Shown here in pieces: positions 8,647 through 22,890 of a DNA stretch of 64,000 nucleotides. Every line of letters begins with the position of its first letter. Position 1 is the stretch's first letter. The position numbers and the translations under genes are program-made. The stretch is from Gemmatimonadota bacterium (lineage in GTDB: Bacteria > Gemmatimonadota > Gemmatimonadetes > Longimicrobiales > Gaopeijiaceae): the NCBI GenBank assembly GCA_007121455.1, contig SKKN01000022.1, positions 1 through 64,000 on the forward strand, read 5' to 3'. The notes under the pieces are model-generated. The model saw nothing but the letters and a program-made list of their open reading frames with translations. It was not told the origin of the DNA and did no database searches.

Positions 8647-11600
8647 TCAACTCGGGCCTCGGCGCACGTCCGCCGCCTTGATGTCCACCACGACGACACC
8701 CCCTCCCGCACTCGGGCCGGAGAGCTTGACGATGACGCAGGCGTCGTCCGTGCCGGAGTCGAAGGGATCGACCGCTCCACCGGTCTCCACGCACGTCAGC
8801 CCGTCATTGTCGCTCGTGAACGGGAGCGTCGCCCGAACCGGACCCAACATCGTATCCCGGACGAACGCACGTCCGTGGAGTTCGAAATGCCGGGTGCCGT
8901 GGATTTCGACCACCCCTCCTCCCACGGGAACGAACGCCAGGCTCACGGCATCGGGAGCCGTGAGCGGCCCCCCGGAGTGGAGCGGGTGTAGGGCCACTCC
9001 CGCGCCACCTGGCTCGATCAGCACCTCGCCCTCGAGGCGGAGGTCCGGGTCGAAGAAGTAGGCGGCGAAGAGTCCTCGGCCGACGCCGAGTTCGCCGTCC
9101 TGGTTGATCGCGACACCGAGGACGCGTTCGGAGGCGTTGCCCGTAAGGTCCGTCACGGAGACGTGGTCCGCGAACTCTTCCTGCCCCGCATCCCACAGGA
9201 AGATCCGACCCGTGGATTCCGTCGCTCCCTCTCCGACGACGATGGAGGAGCCGTCCGTCGACGCGGCGATAAAGGTCGTGTCGGACAGGCCCACAGAGGA
9301 GACGTCCCACGTTCCCGTACGGTGACGCGGTTGGAAAAGGGTCGGGGTCGGATCGAGGACGATGTCCCGAAGCTCCTCGACGACGTCCGCAGTGGCACCG
9401 AAACCGGACTCCCGACTGGATTCCCGCACGTCGTCACGGTCTCCCGGCTGGTGGGTCCTCGCGAGGATCGCGCGTTCTTGCACCTCCTCCCCGTCGACCG
9501 TGACCGTGCGGGTCGTATCGACCATTCGATCGACGCCACCGATGGCGAATGCATCGTCCGTGCTGACGACCATCCCATGTTCCGTGACCAGGCGCACCGC
9601 CATGTCCAGCCCCAACCCATCGTCACCGATCCGGATGGTGCCATCGGGCGCCGTCCCTGTCGGACGGGTCGAGAAGACGAAGAGCCCGTTCACGTCGTGA
9701 GCGACGAACTGTGGCCGATCGGAGAAGCTGTGGAACGTGGTCTGATATTCGATCCCACTCTCCGTCGAGGACTCCTCTACGTCCCAGAGCAGCGCGTTCG
9801 GGGTGGCGATCCTGCCGTCCTCGGTCCATGAGGCCCCGCTCCGCTCGACCCGGGAGAAGTTCGTGCCCCCGGAATTCGCAACGTACAGGACGTCGGGGTC
9901 CCCGGAATCGAAGGTCATCCCCCAGGGCTGGGAGCCGACAGCCGCATGCTCGAGGAACGTCCGCTCCTCGAGGTCGAAGAGCTCCAGCCGGTTCAATCCG
10001 AAGTTCGACAGGATCAAGGCTCCGGTGCCTTCATGTACGACCGCGTCTGCGATGCTCCCGCCCGCGGGGAGGCGAACCGTCTCCCCGGATACCACGCCGA
10101 TCGTCCTCGACAACCATAGATCTTCCTCGGTCACGATCTCCGGCTCGGACTCGTCACAGTCGAGCCGCTGGAAAGTGGTGGCCGAAACCGACGCGCCGCA
10201 GTTCTCGGCCCCGTCGACCATGAATCCGACGAAGTCGAGGAGGAGCGTGTCGGGGGAGAACGCCGGATCGAAACCGAACGCCTCGTAGAGGTCCTCGACC
10301 GCCACCTCGAACATCGCGCTCTGGAGGCCCGGCTCTCCCTTCTCGGGGTCTGCGATCGTATCAGCCCGCACGATCATGGTGGGGTCCGGAGCAAATGCGC
10401 GGTCCTGCGGGAGTGCGCGCAATGTGAAACCGATGATACGGACGCCCACTCCTCCCGGATTGTCCTGCCCTTTCACCTCGACCTCCACCACATCCGTGCG
10501 CTCGACCCGGTTCGGATCCGAGTCCGCACCCTGTGCGGTGGGGATCACCATCAATTCCGGGGCGATCGTGTCGTCCTCCCCCGTCATCACGTTCACAGTC
10601 AGGATGGGCGTGTGGCTTTCGATTTCTTCCGAGTTCCGGGCACGAGCCTGAAGCGTCAACGCACCTCCCTCGTCTTCGGGCAGCTCGATCGCCCACGTTT
10701 CGGTCACCGAAGGGGGATTTCCGGAGAACGAACGCGTGCGAGTGTCCTCCACCACCCCCCCGATGAAGAGATCGAGCCGGGAAATGCCCAGGTTGTCGGA
10801 GGCCTCCACCGTGACCTCGACGGTCTGCCCATCCGTATAGACGTCACCCTCCTCCGGGGCGGTGATGCGGACGCTGGGCCCTCCGACCAAAACGTCCACG
10901 GAGTCCCGGGTGACGTTCCCGACCCCATCTTCGACCGCCGCCCGGATGAAGACCGTCTCGGTCGATTCATCGGCGGTGGGCTGAAGGTATCGCAGGAGGG
11001 TAGTGTCGTTCACCGCACCTCCGAGCTCGACCGTGGTCTCGTGGAAGCGCAGGACCTCCTCATCCGTTCCCAGGTCCGGGTCGCCACGGTGCGCGACTCC
11101 GTCGAATGTGACCCTGGCGATCCCGGAAGGCGCCTCGATGCCGGCGCGCACGAAGACGGAGTCACCCACCGGGATGCCGGAACCGCTGAGCGGTTCATGG
11201 AAATCGACCCACGCAGCCCGTTCGGGAAGGAGCTGGAAGGTGAGGGTATCGGAACCCACGTTCCCCTCCGTGTCCTCGGCCGTCACGATCAGGGTCACCT
11301 CCTCCGGAGAGAAGTCGTTCGTGGGCTCGAGAATCCGCGTGAGCGTCGTGTCGGCGCTGGGGTCCATCAGGTCGATCGTCCACGGATCGAACTTCGTCAC
11401 CTTCTCCTCCGTGCCGAGATCGGGGTCTCCCCGCAGAGCCACCCCCTCGATCGTCACCCGGGCAACCGCGCCGTTGTCCCTGACCCGGACTTCCGTGGGC
11501 ACGGTCTCGTGAGCGTGGAACTCGGATCCCTGAGTGGGGGCGAGGATCTCGACTTCAGGCGGCTCGTCGTCGATGAAGACCACTCGGAGAGGTGCATCCG

Positions 11601-12303
11601 CCGGTGCGCTTCCCACGTTTCCCTCCAGGTCCGTCGCGACCCCTTCGACCTTGAACTCACCGAGGGAGAGATTCTCCGGCACGGTATAGACGAACGTTCG
11701 ACTGGCGGTTCTCCCGTCGACCTTCTCCACCTCGAATGCAACCGTATCCCCTTCCGGGCCGAGGATGCGGAACCCGAGCTGGGCGAGCCCGATGTTGTCC
11801 TGACCGCCGACCTCGATCCCGACATCCTTGCCGAGGCTGACCTCCTCCTGCTGAAGGGTCACGGCCACTGCCGGGGGCGTCAGGTCGATCGCTCGCACCA
11901 CCCGATCGGCCCGCTCACTGGCATTTCCCTGTGCATCCACGGCTTGGGCCGTGAGGGTGAGGAGGGTATCCGTGATCACGGAGGGAACGGCGAACCGGGT
12001 TTCCACGCGGACGTCGAGCTCTCCGGATTCGAGACTCACGACCTCCGTCGCGTGAAAGTCACCGACCGTCGCCCCGACGACGATGGAGTCGACCCGAATC
12101 GACCCCACCGCGTGGACGCCGACCGGTACCTCCTCTCCCGAATCGATGGTCGGCGGTGCGTTGAGTTCGATAATCCTCGGCCCGATTCCGGTTCCGGGAC
12201 CGAAAAGGTTGCCACCATCGCAGGCCCAGAACGCGACCAACCCGAAGAGGCCGAAGCCGAGGAGCCTGAGGGGAAAACGGAGGGCCGACCGGTGAGGAAA
12301 CAT
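8647..12303 (-). CDS. large Ig-repeat and beta-propeller-like lipoprotein of the pilMNOPQ operon
   Basis: I do not recognise a named family. The 1218-residue protein begins with a hydrophobic signal segment ending in FWAC (Cys28), a weak lipobox, followed by DGG. Residues about 40-600 are a string of roughly 100-residue Ig-like/cadherin-like modules with repeated phrases such as DNIGLAQL, EDTEGNVGS and RGDPDLGT (the last seen twice). The second half contains propeller-like strands such as GALILSNFGLNRLELFDL and DVLYVANSGG, reminiscent of YVTN/NHL blades. The start lies 12 bases after the pilQ stop, so it is the last gene of the pil operon. Its size, export signal and position suggest a pilus- or secretin-associated surface lipoprotein; that role is inference. 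Confidence 0.75.
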   Translation of the reverse strand: MFPHRSALRFPLRLLGFGLFGLVAFWACDGGNLFGPGTGIGPRIIELNAPPTIDSGEEVPVGVHAVGSIRVDSIVVGATVGDFHATEVVSLESGELDVRVETRFAVPSVITDTLLTLTAQAVDAQGNASERADRVVRAIDLTPPAVAVTLQQEEVSLGKDVGIEVGGQDNIGLAQLGFRILGPEGDTVAFEVEKVDGRTASRTFVYTVPENLSLGEFKVEGVATDLEGNVGSAPADAPLRVVFIDDEPPEVEILAPTQGSEFHAHETVPTEVRVRDNGAVARVTIEGVALRGDPDLGTEEKVTKFDPWTIDLMDPSADTTLTRILEPTNDFSPEEVTLIVTAEDTEGNVGSDTLTFQLLPERAAWVDFHEPLSGSGIPVGDSVFVRAGIEAPSGIARVTFDGVAHRGDPDLGTDEEVLRFHETTVELGGAVNDTTLLRYLQPTADESTETVFIRAAVEDGVGNVTRDSVDVLVGGPSVRITAPEEGDVYTDGQTVEVTVEASDNLGISRLDLFIGGVVEDTRTRSFSGNPPSVTETWAIELPEDEGGALTLQARARNSEEIESHTPILTVNVMTGEDDTIAPELMVIPTAQGADSDPNRVERTDVVEVEVKGQDNPGGVGVRIIGFTLRALPQDRAFAPDPTMIVRADTIADPEKGEPGLQSAMFEVAVEDLYEAFGFDPAFSPDTLLLDFVGFMVDGAENCGASVSATTFQRLDCDESEPEIVTEEDLWLSRTIGVVSGETVRLPAGGSIADAVVHEGTGALILSNFGLNRLELFDLEERTFLEHAAVGSQPWGMTFDSGDPDVLYVANSGGTNFSRVERSGASWTEDGRIATPNALLWDVEESSTESGIEYQTTFHSFSDRPQFVAHDVNGLFVFSTRPTGTAPDGTIRIGDDGLGLDMAVRLVTEHGMVVSTDDAFAIGGVDRMVDTTRTVTVDGEEVQERAILARTHQPGDRDDVRESSRESGFGATADVVEELRDIVLDPTPTLFQPRHRTGTWDVSSVGLSDTTFIAASTDGSSIVVGEGATESTGRIFLWDAGQEEFADHVSVTDLTGNASERVLGVAINQDGELGVGRGLFAAYFFDPDLRLEGEVLIEPGGAGVALHPLHSGGPLTAPDAVSLAFVPVGGGVVEIHGTRHFELHGRAFVRDTMLGPVRATLPFTSDNDGLTCVETGGAVDPFDSGTDDACVIVKLSGPSAGGGVVVVDIKAADVRRGPS

Positions 12304-12315
12304 GACCGCGCGCCC

Positions 12316-14124
12316 TCAGTTCCGGTCGATGTGAGGAGTGACCAGGATCATCAGGTCCCTCTGATTCTTCTGCTCCCTGGTGAGTCGGAAGAACCGACCC
12401 ACCAGCGGAAGATTCATGAGGAGCGGGATTCCGGCACGAACCTCATCTCGCTCTGTGACGGTGAGACCACCGATCACGATCGTCTCGCCGTCCTGGACCA
12501 GAACTCGTGTTTCTGCTTCCTGGGTGTTGAAGATGAAGCCCACGTCCGCCTCCGCCGTGAGCTCGATCCCCGAGCGTTCTGCTCTCAGGCTCATCAGGAT
12601 GAGGTCCCCGGCCGTGAGGTGCGGCGTCACCTCGAGCATGATCCCCGTCTCCTCGATCTGGACCGTGGCCTGAGGTGGTCCGAGCTGCCCCCCAGCACCC
12701 GTCCCCACGTCCACCACCCGGATCGGGGTGCGCTCGCCGACCAGGATGCGAGCCTGGTGGTTGTCGAGGACGGAGACCTGTGGCGCAGCCTGGATGTCGC
12801 TCAGGTTCACCGACTGGAGCGCTTCGACGAAGGCCAGGAGGGTGTGCCGCCCGAGGATCAGGCTCGTCAGGAATTCGAGCGAAGGATTCAACACCCGCTG
12901 GTTCGCATTCCCGAGGGCAGCGATCGAATTGCCGCCCAGGGATACGACATCCGTCCCCCGCTCCACGATCTCGTCCGGCGAGATCCGGCCGTCCCCATCG
13001 GCATCGATTCCGCCGGGATGGATCGTGTTCAACTGGTTCCCGCGAGAGTCCTTCAGGTCGTAGACGACTCCGAACTCCTCGAGGTCCGTCCGGTTCACGA
13101 AGATGATCTTTGCGGATATCGTGATCTGTGGAGTCCGGAGATCCAGGGACTGCAGGAGTTCCTCGACGGACTCGAGGACCCTGGGGATGTCGGTGACGAC
13201 GAGTGAGTTCGTCGCCTGGTTCACCGAGATCCGCCCCCGCTCCGAGAGGAGCGATTCGATGGGCTCCCTGAACTCGCTCGCCGAAGAGTATCCGATCCGG
13301 AAGCTTCGGGTCAGGAGGGACTCGAAGTCCTCCCGGTCGCGGAGGTTGTCCATCCGGTCGACCCGGATGATCCCGGATCCCGCCTCCTGAGCGGCGAGGC
13401 CGTGGGAGTCCAGGATCGCCTGGAGCGCGAGGTCCCAGGGCTGATCCCGAATGTCCGCGTTCACCTCACCTCCCACGTCCGACCCGGGTACGATCGAGCG
13501 GTCCGTGAACTCGGAGAAGGTGAAGAGCACTTCACGGATGGGAGTGCCCGAGAAGGACACAGTGATGCGCTCGCTGTCCTCACTCGCGCGGAAGGCACTT
13601 CGACCTCCGGCATTCCCGGACCCGGGCCGACGGGCATCGGGCTGAACCGCTGGGAGGACCGGCTGGAGGGAGGCCGTGGTTTCCGTTCGCGGTGCCGCAC
13701 CGGGGGTCCCCATTGCGGCACGGCTCGACCAGGGTTCGAAGGTTCCGCTCGGGTTCTCCATCGAAACCCGGATGTAGCTCCGGTCCATCATCACCGTGTA
13801 CCCGACGAGGTGGTCGAGCTCCAGGACGACACGGACCACGTCGTCCTCGTACTGGCTTGCCTGCACCGCCCGCACCCCGCCTCGGCCCACCTCGTAGAAC
13901 TCTCCGTCGGGAAGACCGTACGCCGCTCCTCTCACATCCAGAACCAGGCGGGCAGGTCCCTCCATCGTGAAGTCCCTGTAGTCTTCCGCACCGTCGACAG
14001 CGATGACCACCTCCGTTCGGTCACCGGAAGGAACGACGCTCAACTCGGTGACCGACGCCGCTTCGGGTTCCGGGGATCCAGCGAGCAATGCGGCAGTGGT
14101 CCATGCGACCATGATCGTCTTCAT
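12316..14124 (-). CDS. pilQ: PilQ, type IV pilus outer-membrane secretin
   Basis: Forms the outer-membrane gate through which the pilus emerges. The 602-residue protein has a signal peptide (1-23), an AMIN domain (about 27-122), a linker, an STN/secretin N0-like domain (about 187-260), a secretin N1 domain (about 270-330) and the C-terminal secretin domain ending in LMILVTPHIDRN. The VPVxG-like LPLVGRFF near the end is typical. Only one AMIN domain is present. Within the region between N1 and the secretin core, residues 374-385 form a perfect EF-hand calcium loop (DADGDGRISPDE), which is not usual in PilQ. Its ATG overlaps the pilP stop. Confidence 0.94.
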   Translation of the reverse strand: MKTIMVAWTTAALLAGSPEPEAASVTELSVVPSGDRTEVVIAVDGAEDYRDFTMEGPARLVLDVRGAAYGLPDGEFYEVGRGGVRAVQASQYEDDVVRVVLELDHLVGYTVMMDRSYIRVSMENPSGTFEPWSSRAAMGTPGAAPRTETTASLQPVLPAVQPDARRPGSGNAGGRSAFRASEDSERITVSFSGTPIREVLFTFSEFTDRSIVPGSDVGGEVNADIRDQPWDLALQAILDSHGLAAQEAGSGIIRVDRMDNLRDREDFESLLTRSFRIGYSSASEFREPIESLLSERGRISVNQATNSLVVTDIPRVLESVEELLQSLDLRTPQITISAKIIFVNRTDLEEFGVVYDLKDSRGNQLNTIHPGGIDADGDGRISPDEIVERGTDVVSLGGNSIAALGNANQRVLNPSLEFLTSLILGRHTLLAFVEALQSVNLSDIQAAPQVSVLDNHQARILVGERTPIRVVDVGTGAGGQLGPPQATVQIEETGIMLEVTPHLTAGDLILMSLRAERSGIELTAEADVGFIFNTQEAETRVLVQDGETIVIGGLTVTERDEVRAGIPLLMNLPLVGRFFRLTREQKNQRDLMILVTPHIDRN

Positions 14125-14696
14125 CTCCGGCCTCCTCGGACCGTGGCATCGAACCCCGGCGACGCTTGGCCCCCGGGAGTGTCCTGCGAAGTGTCGACCG
14201 GGGGCGATCCGGGCTCGTCCAACGTATCCGGTTCCGGCTCCCTCGGCCGAAACATCCTCTGCGGCTGAGGGCTCTCCGACCTCCGCAGCTCGAGGGTTCT
14301 TTGGTCCCGCACTCCGAATTCCTCGACCTCGACGATGACTCTCGATTGCTGGATCTCGAGAACCCTCATGTTTCCGAGCACCTCACCGACCCGAAGGCGA
14401 TAGCTCACCGAGGCCGTCTCTCCGCTTCCGATCAGCGCGACGCTCCGTCCCGGCTCGGACGAAAGGATGGTTCCCAGAAGGCGAAGCTCCTCGAACCGCG
14501 GGCCGTCGAGATCCCCGGTAAGTGGCCGAAAGGGATTCCGGCGGTCGAACTGCGGGTAGTGGAATACCTCCCGTTCGAAGACGAGGGGAACGGAGTCCGG
14601 ATCCGTCTCCGAGGTGGTCTGTGTCGCGGCCGGTCCAGGCAGGGCCAACACCACCACGGCGCACCCGAGCAGGGTGGAAAGTGCCCTGCCCATCAT
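14121..14696 (-). CDS. pilP: PilP-like pilus assembly protein
   Basis: Links the inner-membrane PilNO complex to the PilQ secretin. The 191-residue protein has a signal peptide (about 1-25), the PilP-like segment RRNPFRPLTGDL followed by a small beta domain with LLGTILSSEPGRSVALI and YRLRVGEVLGNMRVLEI, and a Pro/Glu/Arg-rich tail. No lipobox Cys is visible at the usual place, unlike PilP of Pseudomonas. It overlaps both pilO and pilQ by 4 bases. Assignment rests on the beta domain and on its exact position in pilMNOPQ. Confidence 0.85.
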   Translation of the reverse strand: MMGRALSTLLGCAVVVLALPGPAATQTTSETDPDSVPLVFEREVFHYPQFDRRNPFRPLTGDLDGPRFEELRLLGTILSSEPGRSVALIGSGETASVSYRLRVGEVLGNMRVLEIQQSRVIVEVEEFGVRDQRTLELRRSESPQPQRMFRPREPEPDTLDEPGSPPVDTSQDTPGGQASPGFDATVRGGRR

Positions 14697-15289
14697 CCCT
14701 CTGCCTCGACGGGCGGGAGCGGGGTATCCGGGACGACGTATGTCTCGATCCGGAACCGCGCCTGGATCGGAGACTCCACCTCCTGGATGGCCGGGCCCGT
14801 ATAGGGGCGAATCTCGAGGTCGACCGGGGTGATGATCCTCGGAAGCGAAGCGATCGCCGTCAGGAAGCGGGCTACGTCGTGAAAGCTCCCCATCACGCCG
14901 AGCTCGTAGCTCTGCCGAATGTAATGACTGCCAGGCTGTGCCGCCTCCGGTCGCATCGACCCCAGCTCTACTCCGGCCTGCCTGGCCTCCTGCGCCATCG
15001 AGTTCAGCAGTGTGGGCACCTCCTCGGTGCTCGGGATCAATGCTTCGAGCCTTTGAACATGCCGTTCATAAACGGCGAGTCGTTCCTCCAGGTCGTCTCC
15101 ACCCCGAGTAGCCATCATCTGGGCCTGCCGATTCTGGCCTTGGAGGGTCTCGAGGCGCACCTCGAGGGTCGTGATCTCCTCGACCCTCGGCTCATACCAG
15201 TAGTCATAGAAGAGATAGACGACCGCCAGCGATGCGATGATCACGAGGAGCGCGTTGCGCTGCCTGGGGTCTGAGGGGATGAGTGCCAT
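14693..15289 (-). CDS. pilO: PilO-like pilus assembly protein
   Basis: Bitopic inner-membrane partner of PilN in the pilus alignment complex. The 198-residue protein has a short cytoplasmic N-terminus, one membrane helix (about residues 13-30, ALLVIIASLAVVYLFYDYW), a periplasmic coiled coil (about 36-80) and a ferredoxin-like C-terminal domain with LGVMGSFHDVARFLTAIASLPRI, the phrase typical of PilO. The ATG at 15289 lies 14 bases after the pilN stop. A longer open frame upstream overlaps pilN and is rejected. Confidence 0.92.
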   Translation of the reverse strand: MALIPSDPRQRNALLVIIASLAVVYLFYDYWYEPRVEEITTLEVRLETLQGQNRQAQMMATRGGDDLEERLAVYERHVQRLEALIPSTEEVPTLLNSMAQEARQAGVELGSMRPEAAQPGSHYIRQSYELGVMGSFHDVARFLTAIASLPRIITPVDLEIRPYTGPAIQEVESPIQARFRIETYVVPDTPLPPVEAEG

Positions 15290-15303
15290 CGTCGGGCCGC
15301 CCC

Positions 15304-16002
15304 TTACGGGGTCTCCTCGGGAGGCAGTGCGGGCCCTGGAGGCAGGACGCTGGCTCCGAAGAGCGGGACCGTCTCCAGCACCTCCTGGGGAGGCTTTTCG
15401 TGGTATGCCTCGAGCGTGAATTCGTAGACGGGGCGCTCGGCACCACCCGCACCGGATACCATCACCTGATCGGAACTGACGAGTTGAACGCCTCGGAGGA
15501 ATGGCGAGCTCTCGAGGTTCTCCATGAAGGTCGTAAGCGCGAAGTATGTCCCGGCACGCCCCTGGATCCGAAGCAGAAGCTCCGGGGGCGGCGTTACCTG
15601 TGTGAAGGCCGTGAGCCATGTGAACTCAGGGAGAGCCCTCCCGAGCTCATCCATGAGATGGGGCCAGACATATCGGCTCCCATCGATCTCCTGGATCACG
15701 AGAACCCGCTCGGCGATGGAGTCGCTGCGAGCCCTCAGGCGCGCGGCACCTTCGATCACGTCCGCGTACCGCGCCGAGTCCTGAACCGCCACCTCAACGT
15801 CCATTCTCAACTCCTCCTCCACCCCGGCCACGCGGAAGTAGAGCAGCCCGATCGCCAGGAGTGCGAGCGCGCCTGCCCCTGCAGCGCCCAGCAACCAGGG
15901 GTCCGAGGGAAGGCCCTTGAATCTGGGGAGGGAGAAGGAAAACCTCGGGCCACCTTTGGCGGCGCGTTTCCTCCCATCCGGGAGCAGGTTGACTTCAATC
16001 AA
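15304..16002 (-). CDS. pilN: PilN-like pilus assembly protein
   Basis: Inner-membrane protein whose cytoplasmic N-terminus binds PilM and whose periplasmic part pairs with PilO. With the TTG start at 16002 the protein is 232 residues and begins with the canonical PilN motif IEVNLLP, followed by a basic stretch, one membrane helix (LLGAAGAGALALLAIGLLYF) and the PilN ferredoxin-like fold. The start is uncertain: no strong ribosome binding site is visible, and the frame is open to 16122 inside pilM. The motif at the N-terminus is the reason for choosing the TTG. Confidence 0.88.
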   Translation of the reverse strand: MIEVNLLPDGRKRAAKGGPRFSFSLPRFKGLPSDPWLLGAAGAGALALLAIGLLYFRVAGVEEELRMDVEVAVQDSARYADVIEGAARLRARSDSIAERVLVIQEIDGSRYVWPHLMDELGRALPEFTWLTAFTQVTPPPELLLRIQGRAGTYFALTTFMENLESSPFLRGVQLVSSDQVMVSGAGGAERPVYEFTLEAYHEKPPQEVLETVPLFGASVLPPGPALPPEETP

Positions 16003-16018
16003 GTTCAGCCGACCCGCA

Positions 16019-17056
16019 TCACAGGCGACGGAGCGCGAGGCCGAGCGGAAGAGCAAGCATCGGGGCGGTGTCATCGATCGGCACCCCGACCGCTGCATCC
16101 GGCCGGACGGGAACCCGTTCAAACGGGTTCATGACCTGCGTCTCCACGTTCATCCGGCGAGCGAGCGCCTCGGCCATTCCGGCAATCCGGGAGCCCCCGC
16201 CACTGAGGTAGATGCGCCCGAGGCCCACGCCGGCCTGCTGCGTCATCAAGAAGGCGGCGGCACGCTCGACTCCAACGGCTACTTCATCCGCACTGTGTTC
16301 GACGAATTGGGCGAGGTCGGGGATCGATTCCTCTCCCTGGATCACATCCTCCGCCTGCTCGGATGTCAGCCCCCTCTCTCGCTGGAGGTCCTCCCTCACC
16401 CGCCTCGAGCCGAACGGAATGTCCCTCGTGAGAATGGGGATGCCATCCTCCAGAATGTTCACGTTCGTGACCTCGTGCCCGATGTTCACCAGGGCGACGA
16501 TCCCCTGCATACCTTCGGGATAGTTGTGGCTGAACGCGTTGTGAAGCGCAAAAGCGTCCACGTCGATGATCGTCGGAGAGACCCCTGCGTCCCCGAGCAG
16601 GCTCACCTTGTTGTCCACCAACTCCCGTTTCGCCGCGACCAGGAGGACCTGCATTTGCAGTCCTTCGCCCTCGGGGTCCAGGATCTGGAAATCCAATTCG
16701 ACGCTCTTGATGTCGAAGGGAACGTGCTGCTCCGCCTCCCACCGGATCACCTCTCGAGCGTCCGACTCCTTCATCCGGTCCATCTCGATCTTCTTGATGA
16801 TCACGTCATGCCCACCCACCGCCGTCACGACCCTGCCTCCGGTGACGCCGAGCTCCTCGAAAAGTCCCCGAATCGTATCCGCGACGAGTCCGGGATCCAT
16901 CACCTCACCCTCGACGATGGCATCCGGGAGCAGAGGACGCACCGCGATCCGAACCACTTCGGGCTGGTCACCCGAGTGGTCGATTTCGACGATCTTCACG
17001 AACCCGCTTCCGATATCGAGCCCGACAGATGTCCGTTTCCGGCCGAAAAATCCCAT
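16019..17056 (-). CDS. pilM: PilM, actin-like pilus assembly ATPase
   Basis: Cytoplasmic actin-like protein that binds the PilN N-terminus. The 345-residue protein shows VGLDIGSGFVKIVEID (phosphate-1 region), the PilM-specific RWEAEQHVPFD, LVAAKRELVDNKV, VNIGHEVTNVNIL (phosphate-2) and LSGGGSRIAGMAEAL (adenosine loop). The ATG at 17056 gives the usual short lead MGFFGRK; ATG 17065 and TTG 17089 are also open and in frame. It is the first gene after a TTGACA promoter and heads pilMNOPQ plus the large lipoprotein gene. Confidence 0.94.
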   Translation of the reverse strand: MGFFGRKRTSVGLDIGSGFVKIVEIDHSGDQPEVVRIAVRPLLPDAIVEGEVMDPGLVADTIRGLFEELGVTGGRVVTAVGGHDVIIKKIEMDRMKESDAREVIRWEAEQHVPFDIKSVELDFQILDPEGEGLQMQVLLVAAKRELVDNKVSLLGDAGVSPTIIDVDAFALHNAFSHNYPEGMQGIVALVNIGHEVTNVNILEDGIPILTRDIPFGSRRVREDLQRERGLTSEQAEDVIQGEESIPDLAQFVEHSADEVAVGVERAAAFLMTQQAGVGLGRIYLSGGGSRIAGMAEALARRMNVETQVMNPFERVPVRPDAAVGVPIDDTAPMLALPLGLALRRL

Positions 17057-17110
17057 GCCCCCCATCCCCCCGCCGAGGCGAGGAAACAAATTTTTACGAA
17101 GTCCGGTCTC

Positions 17111-17203: not shown

Positions 17204-18451
17204 TCAGAAGGCGAGCGACGAGAGATCCACCCAATTCCGCTGAACGATCGGCCGCAGTCGGATGACATTGTTCGCGTTCATCAACGTGCGTTGGACGCTG
17301 CAGGACGAGTATTGGATCTGGGAGGAACCCCCGTAGGTGTTTTCGTTCTCGAGTGTGGCATTGGAGGCCATTACACCGCCGTAGATCCGGGGCCCACCGC
17401 CGTATGTGCTGACGGTTCCCTGTGCGATGATGATTCCGTGGAAGATGAAGTCCCCCTGCAAGCTAAGGTCTCCATCGACGAGCAGGATTCCCTGGCCTAC
17501 CCCTGCAGACTGAATGCTCACGTCGCCGCTGACATGGATCACCGGGAAGTAGCTTCCACAGGGCGCGTCCGGGTTCTCGGGGTCCCCCCAATTCCAATCG
17601 GCCGGGACGCACTCTCCATCCACCACGTTCGGGCCCGTGTTGTTGATGGTGCCGGGCCCGCGTGTGATGTTCGCCATCTGGACCAGGTCGTCCCAGGTCA
17701 GGTCACCGAACACGGTGAACGTCTCGTCGTCCAACGAATCGTCGTAATCCACGGAGGGGCTCCCGTATTCGGGGTCCCCCGTCACCTCGGCGCCTCCCGA
17801 GGTGCTCACTTCGGACCCCGGTGTGGTAATCACGCCCGGCGTGTCCTCGAGGGACCCATCACATGCTCCTCCCCAGCTCGGGGGCTCGACATCGAGGCCG
17901 GAAATCTGGGCCTGACCGACGAGGCCGACGTCGCCCCGGGTCGTCAGGGCGCCATTGATGTCGATGTTCAGGGACAGCGCCCGCGCGACGACCCCCACCT
18001 CGCGTCGCGCACGGGCATGAGCTCCCCCATGCGTGATCTCACCCCTTCCGGAGAGGAAAAAGAGCTGGTTCCCGATCCGACGCACTTCGACCTGCCACTC
18101 GCCCTGCCCGTCGCTTCCAGCAACGGAATCCGTCTCCCAGAGAGCGAGTGCCATGAACCGCGCGTTTTCCCAATCCTGCACGACCGTTCCGATGCCGCTC
18201 TCCGCGAGGTACAGGGCCGCGGTGCCGCGCTCGGTCGATTGGCTGATCCGGGTTTCCTGGGTCGTCAGGATGAAACCTCCGGTGACCAGGACCCCCACCA
18301 CGACGAGGGCGAAGATCGCGGTGGGAAGTGCAAAGCCGGTCTCAGCAGTGGAATCCGTCACGCTATGGGTCATATGGACATTCCGGTTCATCCGTTTCGG
18401 ACGGGTTGGCCGCCCCGTCGGGGCTGTAGAGGGCAGGTCACCACGGGCCAT
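17204..18451 (-). CDS. PilX-like pilus tip protein with beta-solenoid-like C-terminus (set 1)
   Basis: Exported minor-pilin-class protein of 415 residues. A long leader (about 39 residues) ends in TG, followed by the hydrophobic helix FALPTAIFALVVVGVLVTGG, like PilX/PulK-class proteins that lack the usual Glu5. Residues about 75-190 are PilX-like. From about residue 300 the sequence becomes a run of short strands with regular Gly (HVSGDVSIQ, GILLVDGDLSLQG, GIIIAQGTVSTYGGG), resembling bactofilin-type or right-handed beta-helix repeats. The ATG at 18451 lies 4 bases after the PilW-like stop; internal ATGs at 18391 and 18373 would shorten the leader. It is the last gene of minor-pilin set 1. 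Confidence 0.8.
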   Translation of the reverse strand: MARGDLPSTAPTGRPTRPKRMNRNVHMTHSVTDSTAETGFALPTAIFALVVVGVLVTGGFILTTQETRISQSTERGTAALYLAESGIGTVVQDWENARFMALALWETDSVAGSDGQGEWQVEVRRIGNQLFFLSGRGEITHGGAHARARREVGVVARALSLNIDINGALTTRGDVGLVGQAQISGLDVEPPSWGGACDGSLEDTPGVITTPGSEVSTSGGAEVTGDPEYGSPSVDYDDSLDDETFTVFGDLTWDDLVQMANITRGPGTINNTGPNVVDGECVPADWNWGDPENPDAPCGSYFPVIHVSGDVSIQSAGVGQGILLVDGDLSLQGDFIFHGIIIAQGTVSTYGGGPRIYGGVMASNATLENENTYGGSSQIQYSSCSVQRTLMNANNVIRLRPIVQRNWVDLSSLAF

Positions 18452-18455
18452 GCCC

Positions 18456-19286
18456 TCAGTTTCGGAGGTGCACGGAGGTCGTGATCGATTCCTCGACGAT
18501 GCGGCTAGCCGCGTCTCGGGCAGCCGAGCGCGTGTGCAACGTCACCTGGATCCTTCGAACCTGTTCGGTTTCAGTCGTGACCTCTCCGGAGGCGTCGAAG
18601 TATTCGAAGAGGAGGCCCCCATCCGCCGCGAGCGGCCCGACGAGCGGATGCTCCTCCCCCTCCGTCTCTCTCCCCAGGTAGAGCTGCCCGTCGTACCCGA
18701 TCACGCCGTACCGGTGGGTCTCGAAGCTCCGGACCGGGGCCCCCGGGTGCACCGTGTTCGTGTCCAGGAGGTCGCCCAGGCCCAGGACGGTGATCCTGAT
18801 CCGGTTCCCCGTGCCGTCGGGACACTGTTCCCCCACCGCACGAGCCGTAATCGTGCCTTCGAGCCACACGTCGTCATCCGAGTGAGCGGGGTTATTGTCG
18901 GCAAATACAGTGACCGGCATGCCCACCGCCCAGTCGCCCCCCAATGGCCGCAGCGTGAACCGGGGAGGCACGGCGGAATCGTCGATCAGACAGACGAACC
19001 CCATGGACCGCATCGTCCGAACTTCGATGGAGGTGGGCCCCATATCGAGGAGGTCCCCGCCCGTGGGGCTGATCTCCCGGAGCTCACCGCTCAGCACGTC
19101 AATCCCCGCGCGAACCGTACCGTGACCCTGCACCTGTTCCCGCTGCGCTGTATAGACCCGCTGATTCGAGGCGAGGATCTGATACGCCGCCCCGAGAAGG
19201 ATCGTCCCCAGGACCGCCACGATCATGACCTCGATCAGCGTGAACCCGGAGGAGCGTCCGATCGTACCAGAGGGCCAATGGCTCAC
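18456..19286 (-). CDS. PilW-like minor pilin (set 1)
   Basis: Minor pilin expected to sit in the initiating tip complex. The 276-residue protein has the prepilin peptidase motif SSG|FTLIEVMIVA with Glu5, a hydrophobic helix to about residue 35, then a PilW-type body with ILASNQRVYTAQREQ and a C-terminal LHTRSAARD...TTSVHLRN, the usual PilW ending. The GTG at 19286 overlaps the PilV-like stop (GTGA). The open frame continues upstream to 19442 but overlaps the previous gene. Confidence 0.86.
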   Translation of the reverse strand: MSHWPSGTIGRSSGFTLIEVMIVAVLGTILLGAAYQILASNQRVYTAQREQVQGHGTVRAGIDVLSGELREISPTGGDLLDMGPTSIEVRTMRSMGFVCLIDDSAVPPRFTLRPLGGDWAVGMPVTVFADNNPAHSDDDVWLEGTITARAVGEQCPDGTGNRIRITVLGLGDLLDTNTVHPGAPVRSFETHRYGVIGYDGQLYLGRETEGEEHPLVGPLAADGGLLFEYFDASGEVTTETEQVRRIQVTLHTRSAARDAASRIVEESITTSVHLRN

Positions 19287-19753
19287 GAATCTCCTCGCCG
19301 AATCAGCCGGTAGGTGAAGGTCTCCTCCACATCGGGCGAGTAGACCACGCTGGGATCTCCCACGTACCTTCCCGGGCCCACGATCAGAACCGTGATCTCC
19401 TTCGTCGACTGGGCGGTGGCCCCCGCCGGGACGGCCGTCCAACTGGCCGTGATCGGACCCACGGATACGTTCCCGGAACCCACGTCCTCGAACGGCATCG
19501 CACGGATCTCCTCGAGCGCCGCCTGGTAGGCCGCAGCCCGCTTCGTATCGAGTTCCGACAACGTGGTTGCACGAATGACGTACGCCGTCGCTCCGGCCAT
19601 CGCCAGGAGGCCGACGGTCAGGATGAGCATCGCGACCACGAGCTCAACGAGAGAGAAGCCGCCCGTATTTGCTGCGGCTTTTCGCGGCTTCTCCGCGCCA
19701 CGGACGGGGTCGCGAACTCCGGGGCCGCCTCGATGATCCCGGACTGAGCTCAT
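19283..19753 (-). CDS. PilV-like minor pilin (set 1)
   Basis: The 156-residue protein has a 21-residue basic leader ending NTGG, then FSLVELVVAMLILTVGLLAM with Glu5, matching PilV/GspI-type pilins. The remaining body is short and ends VEETFTYRLIRRGDS. The ATG at 19753 overlaps the FimT-like stop as ATGA. Together with its neighbours it forms a four-gene minor-pilin set. Confidence 0.85.
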   Translation of the reverse strand: MSSVRDHRGGPGVRDPVRGAEKPRKAAANTGGFSLVELVVAMLILTVGLLAMAGATAYVIRATTLSELDTKRAAAYQAALEEIRAMPFEDVGSGNVSVGPITASWTAVPAGATAQSTKEITVLIVGPGRYVGDPSVVYSPDVEETFTYRLIRRGDS

Positions 19754-20208
19754 CGGGCGACCTGTCCGAGAGGCAGGATGCGGACCTCTCGCTCCTGTCC
19801 GCCGCGGGCGAATGCGATCGTGGCCTCGGACGAAAAGGAGTTGCATCCCAGCTCGGCAAATCCCCGGGGAGTCATGCAGAGCTCCACGAGCTCGGGTACG
19901 CTTCGAACGACGGTGCCGAACGCCTCGAGAAAGTTCTGTGTGCGAAGCGTGATTGGATCGTCCAGCGTGCCTGCAACGATCGAGACCCGATCGTTCCCGG
20001 AGTCGACCACGAGACGGACCCGCTCGCCTCGCTCCACGGCGGAAGCGCGGGTCTGGGCGTGCATCGAGAGGAAGCTCGACTCCGCAGATCGAAGTGCCGA
20101 GCGCCCCTGAGCGCCTCCGTACGCATTGACGGCGATGCCCATGAGGATCCCGCCGACCGTGAGGGCGACGACGAGCTCGAGCAGGGTCACCCCGGTATTG
20201 TCCCCCAT
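19750..20208 (-). CDS. FimT/GspH-like minor pilin (set 1)
   Basis: The 152-residue prepilin has a six-residue leader (MGDNTG) and the helix VTLLELVVALTVGGILMGIA with Glu5. The body matches the GspH/FimT pattern, with RSAESSFLSMHAQTRASAVERGERVRL and a C-terminal ATIAFARGGQEREV. The ATG at 20208 has a strong GGAAGGAG about 8 bases upstream. As the first gene of set 1 it is preceded by a roughly 190-base leader with an inverted repeat and a possible sigma-54 site. Confidence 0.87.
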   Translation of the reverse strand: MGDNTGVTLLELVVALTVGGILMGIAVNAYGGAQGRSALRSAESSFLSMHAQTRASAVERGERVRLVVDSGNDRVSIVAGTLDDPITLRTQNFLEAFGTVVRSVPELVELCMTPRGFAELGCNSFSSEATIAFARGGQEREVRILPLGQVAR

Positions 20209-20230
20209 CGAGCCGCTCCTTCCGCGAGAG

Positions 20231-20253
20231 TCGTATGCACGCGCAGCATACGA
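20231..20253. promoter_or_regulatory. 8-bp inverted repeat in the leader of minor-pilin set 1
   Basis: TCGTATGC (20231-20238) and GCATACGA (20246-20253) are perfect inverted arms around a 7-base centre ACGCGCA, about 23 bases before the FimT-like start codon. It may be an operator or an RNA hairpin in the 5' untranslated region. A TATGCT -10-like hexamer overlaps it on the minus strand. Confidence 0.45.
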
Positions 20254-20291
20254 GAAGCATGCCGCTCACGAAATGGCCTCGTTGAGCCATC

Positions 20292-20307
20292 GCAAACGAC
20301 AACCCGA
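20292..20307 (-). promoter_or_regulatory. possible sigma-54 site upstream of minor-pilin set 1
   Basis: On the minus strand TCGGGTTGTCGTTTGC has GG and GC separated by exactly 10 bases, with TTTGC at the -12 element. The -24 element is poor (TCGG rather than TGGC). It would start transcription about 70 bases before the gene, similar to the better site at pilA. Chance matches to this spacing are common, so this is a weak call. Confidence 0.3.
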
Positions 20308-20400
20308 GCAACCGACCGGAAGAGTCTTCGGAAGCCTCGGAACTTTGTTCTGATCGCGACCTGCGACGGAGGAAGATGAACGAATGAAGCAGCAACCTGT

Positions 20401-21363
20401 TCACAGCGGCCGAAGCCAGGATCCGGAAGGAATAGGAAGTGGTTGACGTAGCTCCCCCTCCGTGAAGGCTTCGTCGAGCAGGCATGGATTTGATACGAAC
20501 GCTCCGCGGCCGTCGAGTCGCATATCCCCCCCGACCCGGACCACCCCTTCGACCCGGCTGTCCCCATCCACCTCGAGATCTCCCGTCGTGATCACCAGAC
20601 CCCGGACCTCCGCAGGCCCTTCGAGACGAAGGTCCCCAGCGACCACGAGGACCCCGGACCACGCTCCCTCGGCCAACACGACGCTCTCCTCGCTCAGAGG
20701 AAGGTCGAAGGTGGATTCGCCGAAATCGGTTTCCCTCGTCCCCGCGGCAGACCCGTCGAGAAGGGACCGTGCCTCAGCAATCGAGAGGATTCCCAGGAAG
20801 GGAAACGGGTCGGTCTCGAGCGTCCCCTCGTGCAACGAGCGGCTCCGGCTCACCGGCATGGATACCGCCTCGGGACAGAGCACCTCACCCGTCCCCTCGT
20901 CCGTCCTCCGGGTGAGGCTGGCATCCTCTCCTACCTCCAGCACGCCTCCGTATTCGGCGCCGGCGAGCGTTCGTGTCCGCTCCTCATCGGGATGGAGGAT
21001 CCAGTGGATTCGTCCAAGGTGTACCTCCGGACCGTCTCCCCCGACGACCGCGTTCGCCTGAACGAGGAGATACTCGGCGCTGAGTGGGGTCGCATAAGCC
21101 CGGTGCTGAACCTCGTCGTTGAACCCTCCCGAGAGGACCGGACCATTGTCCGCTTTAGCGAGTTCATCCATCGAGAGGCCCGACTCTCGCAGCTCGAGGC
21201 CCGCCCTCACGACCGCAGACTCGGCCTCGGTCCGAACTCGAAGGAGGAGGGAGGAAGCCCGCGCCCCCCTCAGCTCCTCCATCGCGAGAAGGAGCGATGC
21301 GTGAACGAAACCAGTCATGGCGAGCAGGAGAAGGAGAAGAAGTGGCAGCGCGGCGCCTCTCAC
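20401..21363 (-). CDS. PilX-like pilus tip protein with beta-solenoid-like C-terminus (set 2)
   Basis: The 320-residue protein begins RGAALPLLLLLLLAMTGFVH, a PilX/PulK-class hydrophobic helix without Glu5, followed by the PilX-like ASSLLLRVRTEAESAVVRAGLEL. Residues about 225-295 form short Gly-spaced strands (GVLVVAGDLRLEG, GLVITTGDLEVDG, GVVRVGGDMRLDG), bactofilin-like and clearly parallel to the tail of the set 1 protein at 17204. The GTG at 21363 overlaps the previous stop (GTGA); an upstream GTG at 21387 is the alternative. The frame continues open to 21963 but overlaps the previous gene. Confidence 0.75.
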   Translation of the reverse strand: MRGAALPLLLLLLLAMTGFVHASLLLAMEELRGARASSLLLRVRTEAESAVVRAGLELRESGLSMDELAKADNGPVLSGGFNDEVQHRAYATPLSAEYLLVQANAVVGGDGPEVHLGRIHWILHPDEERTRTLAGAEYGGVLEVGEDASLTRRTDEGTGEVLCPEAVSMPVSRSRSLHEGTLETDPFPFLGILSIAEARSLLDGSAAGTRETDFGESTFDLPLSEESVVLAEGAWSGVLVVAGDLRLEGPAEVRGLVITTGDLEVDGDSRVEGVVRVGGDMRLDGRGAFVSNPCLLDEAFTEGELRQPLPIPSGSWLRPL

Positions 21364-22082
21364 CCTTCCGGAGGATGAATCCGCCACTCGCGGGCCCACG
21401 CCGGATCTCGCACGTGCGGCTCCCGTCCCTCGATCTCGACCCGCACTTCCAGAACCCGACCGTCCCGGAGGAAGAGAGAACCGTCTCCGAAGGTTTCGCC
21501 GACCAGCGGCTGACGCCCCTCTCCCCCTCGGCGATAGCGCAGCGCCCGGTTCGCCATGTGGTACGAGCCGGACTCGAACACCCGTGCAGCCACCCACCCG
21601 CCCAGCTCCTCGGAGACGCGCCACGCCCCCTCCTCTCCCGCGTGGAGCTCCGGACATACAACCTGCTCCCCGGAGTCCGATTCGGTCAGCGCCGCCGCTC
21701 TCCACCGTCCGTCGAAGCCCAGCAGAAGCACTGAATCCCTGGCCGGATCGGGCGCCCGGACTCCCCGGTAGCGGACAGGCACCGCTCCATCCGGCCCCGG
21801 GGGGCCGCACGCCACCCCTGTCGCACGAAACGCCCGGATCCGTACCACACCGTCGTCCCCGACCGCCCAGTCCCGAACGGGCTGCCCAGCCCGGACTTCG
21901 GTCCCCACCACCCAGCGGCTGGTCCGCGCGGCCTCCAGCCCCTCCACGATGCTCATCGTCCATCGTGCCACCTCCACCTGACTGCGAAATGTGTCTACGC
22001 TCACGGTGAACACGAGAAGGAGGAGCAGAAGAGTTACGAGGACCTCGAGGATCGTTCGGCCTTCGCGGGAGCGTCGGTTCAT
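21360..22082 (-). CDS. PilW-like minor pilin (set 2)
   Basis: The 240-residue protein has the leader MNRRSREG and the helix RTILEVLVTLLLLLLVFTVS with Glu5 but an Arg rather than the usual Phe after the cleavage Gly. The body is unlike common Pfam pilins; I place it as the PilW-equivalent by position and size. It contains Cys in GVACGPPG and VVCPELHAG. The ATG at 22082 overlaps the PilV-like stop. Confidence 0.7.
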   Translation of the reverse strand: MNRRSREGRTILEVLVTLLLLLLVFTVSVDTFRSQVEVARWTMSIVEGLEAARTSRWVVGTEVRAGQPVRDWAVGDDGVVRIRAFRATGVACGPPGPDGAVPVRYRGVRAPDPARDSVLLLGFDGRWRAAALTESDSGEQVVCPELHAGEEGAWRVSEELGGWVAARVFESGSYHMANRALRYRRGGEGRQPLVGETFGDGSLFLRDGRVLEVRVEIEGREPHVRDPAWAREWRIHPPEG

Positions 22083-22465
22083 GAAGTTTCCTCCGAAGAC
22101 GACGGCCCCGGCACGACGAGATGCACGCGATGTGCGCCCAGCTCCCTTCCGTCCTCGCGGAGGACTCGGATCTTCACGAGGCCGTTCCCACCTTGCCCAG
22201 CCTCCCAACGGATTTCCGACCCCGCTGGCCCCTCGGTTTCCCCTGGCCCGCCCCATCCGAACCACCTCAGAGAATCCGCCACCTGCTCCGTGCGCATCGT
22301 CACCTCTTCGACGAACCGGGCCTCTCCGAGGATCCGGACCACCTGCGTCGTCAGGCCCGCGACGCCGACGAGACCCACGGCGAAGATCGTCAGCCCGACC
22401 AGAACCTCGGAGAGGGTGAATCCACCCTGGCGACATCGTTTGGGCCCGGCCTTCGACCAGGTCAT
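22079..22465 (-). CDS. PilV-like minor pilin (set 2)
   Basis: The 128-residue prepilin has a 15-residue basic leader ending QGG, then FTLSEVLVGLTIFAVGLVGVAGL with Glu5, close to PilV/GspI. The rest is a short body with FVEEVTMRTEQVADSLRWFGW. The ATG at 22465 overlaps the stop of the FimT-like gene (ATGA), and its own stop overlaps the next start. Confidence 0.83.
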   Translation of the reverse strand: MTWSKAGPKRCRQGGFTLSEVLVGLTIFAVGLVGVAGLTTQVVRILGEARFVEEVTMRTEQVADSLRWFGWGGPGETEGPAGSEIRWEAGQGGNGLVKIRVLREDGRELGAHRVHLVVPGPSSSEETS

Positions 22466-22890
22466 CGGCGCCGCACCCGCCCTCGGGAGGAGACGACGAC
22501 TCCCGCTTCTGCGTCGCCCCTGCGGAAAAGAAGGGTGCGGCTCGCGCCCCTCCCGAGCCCGAGGGCGTCGTACTGGAGCTCGACGACACCGTCCCGGCCG
22601 GGATCGACCTCGACCCCGAAACGTTTCGGGAAGTTCACCTCTCGAACGGGCTCCCCGCGCACGAGGACCGACGCGGCCCCCGAACTCGGATCGATGCGGA
22701 TCAGGGCACCACCACTTCCCGGAGCCGTCCGTCGCGCGAGGGCGAAGAGTGCAATGCCCTCCTCCCTCGCGGACGACACGGCGATTCGGTCCCCCCAGGA
22801 GCGCATGGGCGGCAACCCGACGCTCACGATCACGGTGACGAGGAGGAAGCCTCCGACGAGCTCCGGCAGTGTGGTTCCCATGCGTCCCAT
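22462..22890 (-). CDS. FimT/GspH-like minor pilin (set 2)
   Basis: The 142-residue protein has a very short leader (MGRMG) and the helix TTLPELVGGFLLVTVIVSVG with Glu5. The body resembles GspH/FimT: SSAREEGIALFALARRTAPG, then RIDPSSGAASVLVRG and GVVELQYDALG. ATG 22890 and ATG 22881 are both possible starts; no strong ribosome binding site is visible. It lies 51 bases after the upstream response-regulator gene, separated by a hairpin, so the set may be transcribed together with that regulator. Confidence 0.78.
   Translation of the reverse strand: MGRMGTTLPELVGGFLLVTVIVSVGLPPMRSWGDRIAVSSAREEGIALFALARRTAPGSGGALIRIDPSSGAASVLVRGEPVREVNFPKRFGVEVDPGRDGVVELQYDALGLGRGASRTLLFRRGDAEAGVVVSSRGRVRRR

Follow-up and report, generated by a model that had tools for sequence, protein, structure and literature searches.

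Two genes on the minus strand of a 64,000-nucleotide window from a Gemmatimonadota bacterium (assembly GCA_007121455.1, contig SKKN01000022.1, positions 1 to 64,000) encode K-type (GspK/PilX) core minor pilins, designated here A and B, each with a predicted beta-solenoid domain. The two proteins probably present this domain at the tip of a type IV pilus, where they would prime assembly, cap the fibre and contact a ligand.

The genes encoding A and B (Table 1) are each the fourth, or K, gene of a set that otherwise encodes minor pilins of the FimU/GspH (H), PilV/GspI (I) and PilW/GspJ (J) types. The two H-I-J-K sets are arranged in tandem (17204-22890) with approximately 190 base pairs between them, and are followed by pilM, pilN, pilO, pilP and pilQ. 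The order of the sets relative to pilMNOPQ is kept at many related Gemmatimonadota loci. The N-termini of A and B carry a class III signal, with glycine at position -1 followed by a hydrophobic helix, and lack glutamate at position 5 (Glu5). Prepilin cleavage of A is predicted after Gly39, placing the start of the mature protein at about residue 40. Glycine at -1 was found in 161 of 161 alignable relatives, A and B included, and Glu5 in none of them, whereas the six H, I and J partners and PilA have it. How Glu5 contributes to subunit-subunit contacts has been reviewed (PMC4471445). The absence of this residue from the K protein alone agrees with a role in capping the fibre. The fourth gene position, the missing Glu5 and a bulky extra domain are features shared with GspK, PulK, PilX and PilK; however, the extra domain of GspK is alpha-helical (PMC8179133), whereas that of A and B is predicted to be a solenoid.

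The structures of A and B were modelled with AlphaFold2 from alignments of 56 and 22 sequences, respectively. The model of A had a mean predicted local distance difference test score (pLDDT) of 92.2 and a predicted template modelling score (pTM) of 0.84. In the numbering of the modelled stretch it comprised a helix (3-54), four antiparallel strands (to residue 121), many short strands (131-342) forming the solenoid and, at the end, a helix and two strands. The model of B had a mean pLDDT of 83.9 and a pTM of 0.76; its pLDDT fell below 50 at residues 202-218 in the numbering of the modelled stretch, and in protein numbering model confidence was low at residues 179-183 and 205-221. Both models consist of a pilin helix and antiparallel sheet, then the beta-solenoid, then a short C-terminal tail, and the predicted solenoid domain is well supported. 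A plain pilin fold lacking the solenoid, named in the initial annotation of this DNA as the result that would refute its proposal, was seen in neither model. The description of both proteins as finishing in solenoid strands requires correction, since about 30 further residues, a short helix and extended segments, follow the solenoid.

The solenoids carry the repeated GDLxLxG pattern for which the two proteins had originally been singled out. The peptides quoted as examples are present: GILLVDGDLSLQG corresponds to residues 321-333 of A (17453-17491), and GVLVVAGDLRLEG and GVVRVGGDMRLDG to residues 237-249 (20617-20655) and 273-285 (20509-20547) of B. The coordinates 17204 and 20401 previously attached to them are ends of open reading frames and not motif positions. 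Searching with the pattern G[DN][LMVI]x[LIVM]xG revealed three copies in B with a spacing of 18, a result that shuffling the C-terminal region 20,000 times never produced, and two copies in A (P 0.0007 for the full protein); these counts are far above chance. Six matches occur across the six reading frames of the window, and five of them fall in A or B. Multiples of six dominate the glycine spacings of B, the regular rungs of which span residues 237-291.

Both models were compared with the Protein Data Bank (PDB) using Foldseek. The top match of A was ComZ of Thermus thermophilus HB27 (6QVI) with E = 3.9e-5, the only match below 0.001, and the top match of B was also ComZ, with E = 2.3e-3; ice-binding proteins ranked after ComZ for both A and B. 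In its crystal structure, ComZ is a GspK-like pilin into which a beta-solenoid is inserted, and the nearest structural relative of this solenoid is the ice-binding protein FfIBP; ComZ was proposed to be the tip pilin on steric grounds and to be a DNA receptor, with lysines 98 and 233 contributing to DNA binding (PMC6561018). ComZ is also discussed in a study of modular pilins (PMC8179133). Like A and B, ComZ lacks the typical pilin motif, is encoded with other minor pilins and carries its solenoid late in the pilin fold, in ComZ as an insertion and in A and B according to the models. The order of strands predicted for A (four strands, solenoid, helix, final strands) fits a ComZ-like insertion between the penultimate and last pilin strands. 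The proteins differ in that the solenoid of ComZ is longer (about 380 residues, versus about 210 in A and 155 in B), that A and B are two paralogues in two complete H-I-J-K sets adjoining pilMNOPQ, and that their solenoids are strongly acidic and free of lysine. The statement in the initial annotation that known PilX/PulK proteins carry no such domain is contradicted by the ComZ crystal structure. The "new kind of adhesin" envisaged there is likewise a published design, of which A and B represent a phylum-wide version.

The relation of A and B to named sequence families is distant. Pfam cut-offs are 25.5 bits for PilX_N (PF14341) and 27 bits for DUF7305 (PF23981). Protein A scored below both, with 14.8 and 17.1 bits respectively; B was also below the PilX_N cut-off and had no match to DUF7305. 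PilX_N matches at E≤0.01 were obtained for 4 of 25 relatives of A, the best at 4.3e-5. A protein from another Gemmatimonadota genome (L146) scored above both cut-offs, with 31.1 bits for PilX_N and 34.2 bits for DUF7305, a second instance of a PilX-type protein with a domain of this kind, and its N-terminal profile matched family A with E = 1.4e-11. Proteins with PilX_N and DUF7305 resemble A and B in combining a PilX-type N-terminus with a C-terminal solenoid-type domain; however, DUF7305 was matched in just 8 of 249 genomes of the phylum and is rare beside family A, which occurs in 206 of 249. Since no DUF7305 match at E≤0.001 was found in the genome encoding A and B, the link between A and DUF7305 rests on the 17 bits and on the N-terminal comparison with true DUF7305 proteins. 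Judged from these scores, A and B would at best be distant members of the PilX_N and DUF7305 proteins. A literature search for DUF7305 returned no paper. In a related genome, a DUF7305 protein (L144:1432-2991) also exceeded the threshold for pAdhesive_15, described as a putative adhesive domain of ice-binding-like type, which suggests that these Pfam families overlap. Protein B gave 17.8 bits against DUF2572 (PF10833; cut-off 23.8) over the solenoid rungs. No NCBIfam model was found for A or B, the family matches there being at chance level, and neither searches with the single sequences of A and B nor a search with profile A3 found any solved structure. The two proteins are accordingly filed as solenoid-bearing K pilins built like ComZ, neither homologues of ComZ by descent nor members of DUF7305.

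Cysteine covariation was counted over 164 sequences. For C197 and C384 of A, both cysteines are present in 154 sequences, neither in 4 and only one in 6, and at least three of these six (L076, L118 and L021) are sequences broken by a contig end. For C281 and C298 both are present in 143, neither in 19 and only one in 2. Protein B retains the C197-C384 pair only. The pattern suggests that the pairs form disulphides, and since the cysteines are gained and lost in pairs, it speaks for a domain that is exported and stapled. Over 223 residues the solenoid of A carries a net charge of -29, with no lysine and three arginines, and that of B a net charge of -19 over 168 residues, also with no lysine; the complete ectodomains contain no lysine in A and one in B. 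No other protein of the locus is as acidic as these two.

Relatives of A were found in 57 and relatives of B in 38 of 78 related genomes, and the named loci fetched with the A alignment were all from Gemmatimonadota. The A-family profile matched 206 of the 249 sampled Gemmatimonadota genomes, with up to seven matches per genome, although some of the weakest matches may span the pilin stalk only. Conservation of the family extends along the full length of the protein throughout the phylum (mean column identity of A3, 33%). Comparison of the A and B profiles gave E = 3.8e-87 over the full length; the B alignment included a few A-type rows, and direct searches with single sequences also link the two groups. 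On this sequence evidence A and B are paralogues. At four other Gemmatimonadota loci (L099, L128, L103 and L134) two or three A-type genes are adjacent. Conservation is clearly lower in the upstream set, which contains B, than in the downstream set with A. Against the same two relatives, identity was 40% and 34% for B and 63% and 57% for A, compared with 87% and 86% for PilM and 74% and 72% for PilQ. The faster divergence of the B set fits either a specialised second tip or weaker constraint.

In other bacteria the usual tip adhesin is PilY1, carried by PilX (PMC13190605). PilY1 (PF05567) was matched in 1 of 249 Gemmatimonadota genomes, a single match which shows that the search can work, although a divergent PilY1 could escape it. 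It was matched in none of the 78 related genomes, in a search that had no matching control and cannot by itself demonstrate absence. The simplest reading is that the solenoid replaces PilY1 as the outermost module. The H, I, J and K set would start assembly of the pilus fibre with A or B as its last member, and A or B would cap the fibre as the bulky domain leaves nothing on which a further subunit could stack. The solenoid would then be carried at the outermost tip, the place of PilY1 in other bacteria, and would most likely make contact with a surface or ligand. The two tandem sets, with A conserved and B evolving faster, may provide two alternative tips or one mixed tip. A broader proposal, held tentatively and at somewhat less than even chances, is that Gemmatimonadota pili have largely abandoned PilY1 as tip adhesin and employ solenoid K pilins in its place, in two or more tandem tip sets, one conserved and one fast-evolving, which would serve as alternative tips on one machine.

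Several results weigh against placing ComZ-like solenoids at the tip in the stead of PilY1. Global template modelling (TM) scores of the models to ComZ are low (0.15-0.29), and no sequence match to ComZ at E≤10 was obtained with the A- or B-family profile; the kinship is therefore one of architecture and local fold rather than close superposition. Placing the solenoid between the last two strands of the pilin relies on strand order and not on coordinates, and the middle part of B is poorly modelled. The rarity of PilY1 derives from one Pfam model with one sampled genome matched and no control genome, and some Gemmatimonadota have PilY1 homologues in a published tree (PMC13190605).

A purely structural solenoid, serving as a bulky cap that blocks the addition of subunits above K and as an aid to priming with no ligand of its own, would be consistent with the K position and the missing Glu5. 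The large domain of GspK, of unclear function, blocks addition above it (PMC4471445; PMC8179133), and the conservation of family A over its whole length across the phylum also agrees with such a role. However, up to seven family matches per genome and the faster divergence of B fit diversification for ligands better, though they do not prove it, and the purely structural role is considered rather unlikely. It is less probable still that A and B act in natural transformation as receptors for DNA, with the solenoid at the tip binding DNA and the pilus pulling it into the cell. This role is proposed by analogy to ComZ, the closest solved structure, and since ComEC (PF03772) is encoded in the same genome and was found in 35 of the 39 that were searched, transformation is possible. 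The very acidic, lysine-free solenoids nevertheless speak against a ComZ-like lysine site, although charge is not decisive by itself as DNA binding by ComZ apparently does not need a positive surface charge (PMC9956873).

The initial annotation described the solenoids as bactofilin-like and considered a polymerising cap; in this reading the solenoids of several tips would assemble end to end, forming a cap or bundle. Bactofilins lack a pilin stalk and form bare helices or polymers in the cytoplasm. They share with A and B short, glycine-spaced, beta-helical repeats, and some searches did detect them: B gave 16.4 bits against Bactofilin (PF04519), below the cut-off of 27.9, 2 of 22 relatives of B matched at E≤0.01, and among solved structures the B-family profile matched bactofilin 6RIA with E = 0.015. 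However, the same profile matched ice-binding proteins far better (E = 1.2e-7), hhalign comparison with the genome's own bactofilin gave a probability of 3%, and no bactofilin is among the listed Foldseek PDB matches of A or B. The bactofilin reading was dropped on these grounds. Polymerisation is further disfavoured by the models, in which the solenoid would be embedded in the pilin, one side joining the pilin sheet and the other leading to the helix and tail, with the paired cysteines stapling it; end-to-end joining of tips is thus very improbable. Ice-binding proteins (for example 7DC5, 3VN3 and FfIBP) share the solenoid rungs but are not pilins, and there is no evidence that points to ice binding by A or B. 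What stands of the initial annotation is a PilX/GspK-type pilin with a beta-solenoid, probably located at the pilus tip. On other contigs of the genome, away from the pilus locus, there are two clear cases of bactofilins, scoring 92.5 and 85.8 bits, and a membrane protein in which a short stretch resembles bactofilin (L001, L002 and L003). A literature search returned nothing relevant by title linking bactofilin with minor pilins.

The features of the locus are listed in Table 1. No Pfam match was obtained for the PilW/GspJ-position and FimU/GspH-position pilins of the B cluster. The names pilM to pilQ were assigned from position and sequence features and not by family search. The GTG start of B, at 21363, overlaps the stop of the preceding gene, and a promoter scan gave no signal above chance. 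Directly downstream of pilQ (8647-12303, minus strand) is a gene encoding an exported-looking protein of 1218 residues with apparent repeated Ig-like stretches, which could be surface- or pilus-associated.

Table 1. Pilin genes, predicted domains and adjoining pilus genes in the window.
Feature	Position	Strand	Basis or remark
Protein A (415 residues)	17204..18451	minus	K/PilX-type minor pilin with predicted beta-solenoid; relatives in related genomes
A N-terminal pilin helix (residues 39-92)	18176..18337	minus	Gly at -1, no Glu +5; AlphaFold helix
A beta-solenoid (about residues 169-380)	17312..17947	minus	Predicted; after four pilin strands; pLDDT mostly 89-98 per block
PilW/GspJ-type minor pilin, A cluster	18456..19277	minus	N_methyl PF07963, synteny
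PilV/GspI-type minor pilin, A cluster	19283..19753	minus	N_methyl PF07963, synteny
FimU/GspH-type minor pilin, A cluster	19750..20208	minus	N_methyl PF07963, sub-threshold GspH PF12019, synteny
Protein B (320 residues, GTG start)	20401..21363	minus	Shorter paralogue of A; K/PilX-type minor pilin with predicted beta-solenoid
B N-terminal pilin helix (residues 4-61)	21181..21354	minus	No Glu +5; AALPL after Gly3
B beta-solenoid (residues 136-291)	20491..20958	minus	Model; fold match to ComZ
PilW/GspJ-position minor pilin, B cluster	21360..22082	minus	R-T-I-L-E N-terminus after Gly, synteny
PilV/GspI-position minor pilin, B cluster	22079..22465	minus	N_methyl PF07963
FimU/GspH-position minor pilin, B cluster	22462..22890	minus	T-T-L-P-E N-terminus, synteny
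pilM, pilN, pilO, pilP, pilQ (pilus machine)	12316..17089	minus	Directly downstream of A; order conserved

Correction of the bactofilin label is of consequence, since it would misdirect annotation of these proteins. With the design itself already known, the remaining interest lies in a ComZ-type tip found phylum-wide, in the two tandem sets and in the scarcity of PilY1. The results suggest that the ComZ design, represented so far by one structure from Thermus, serves as the usual tip protein throughout a phylum where PilY1 is hardly found, and whether a solenoid pilin can replace PilY1 becomes a testable question.

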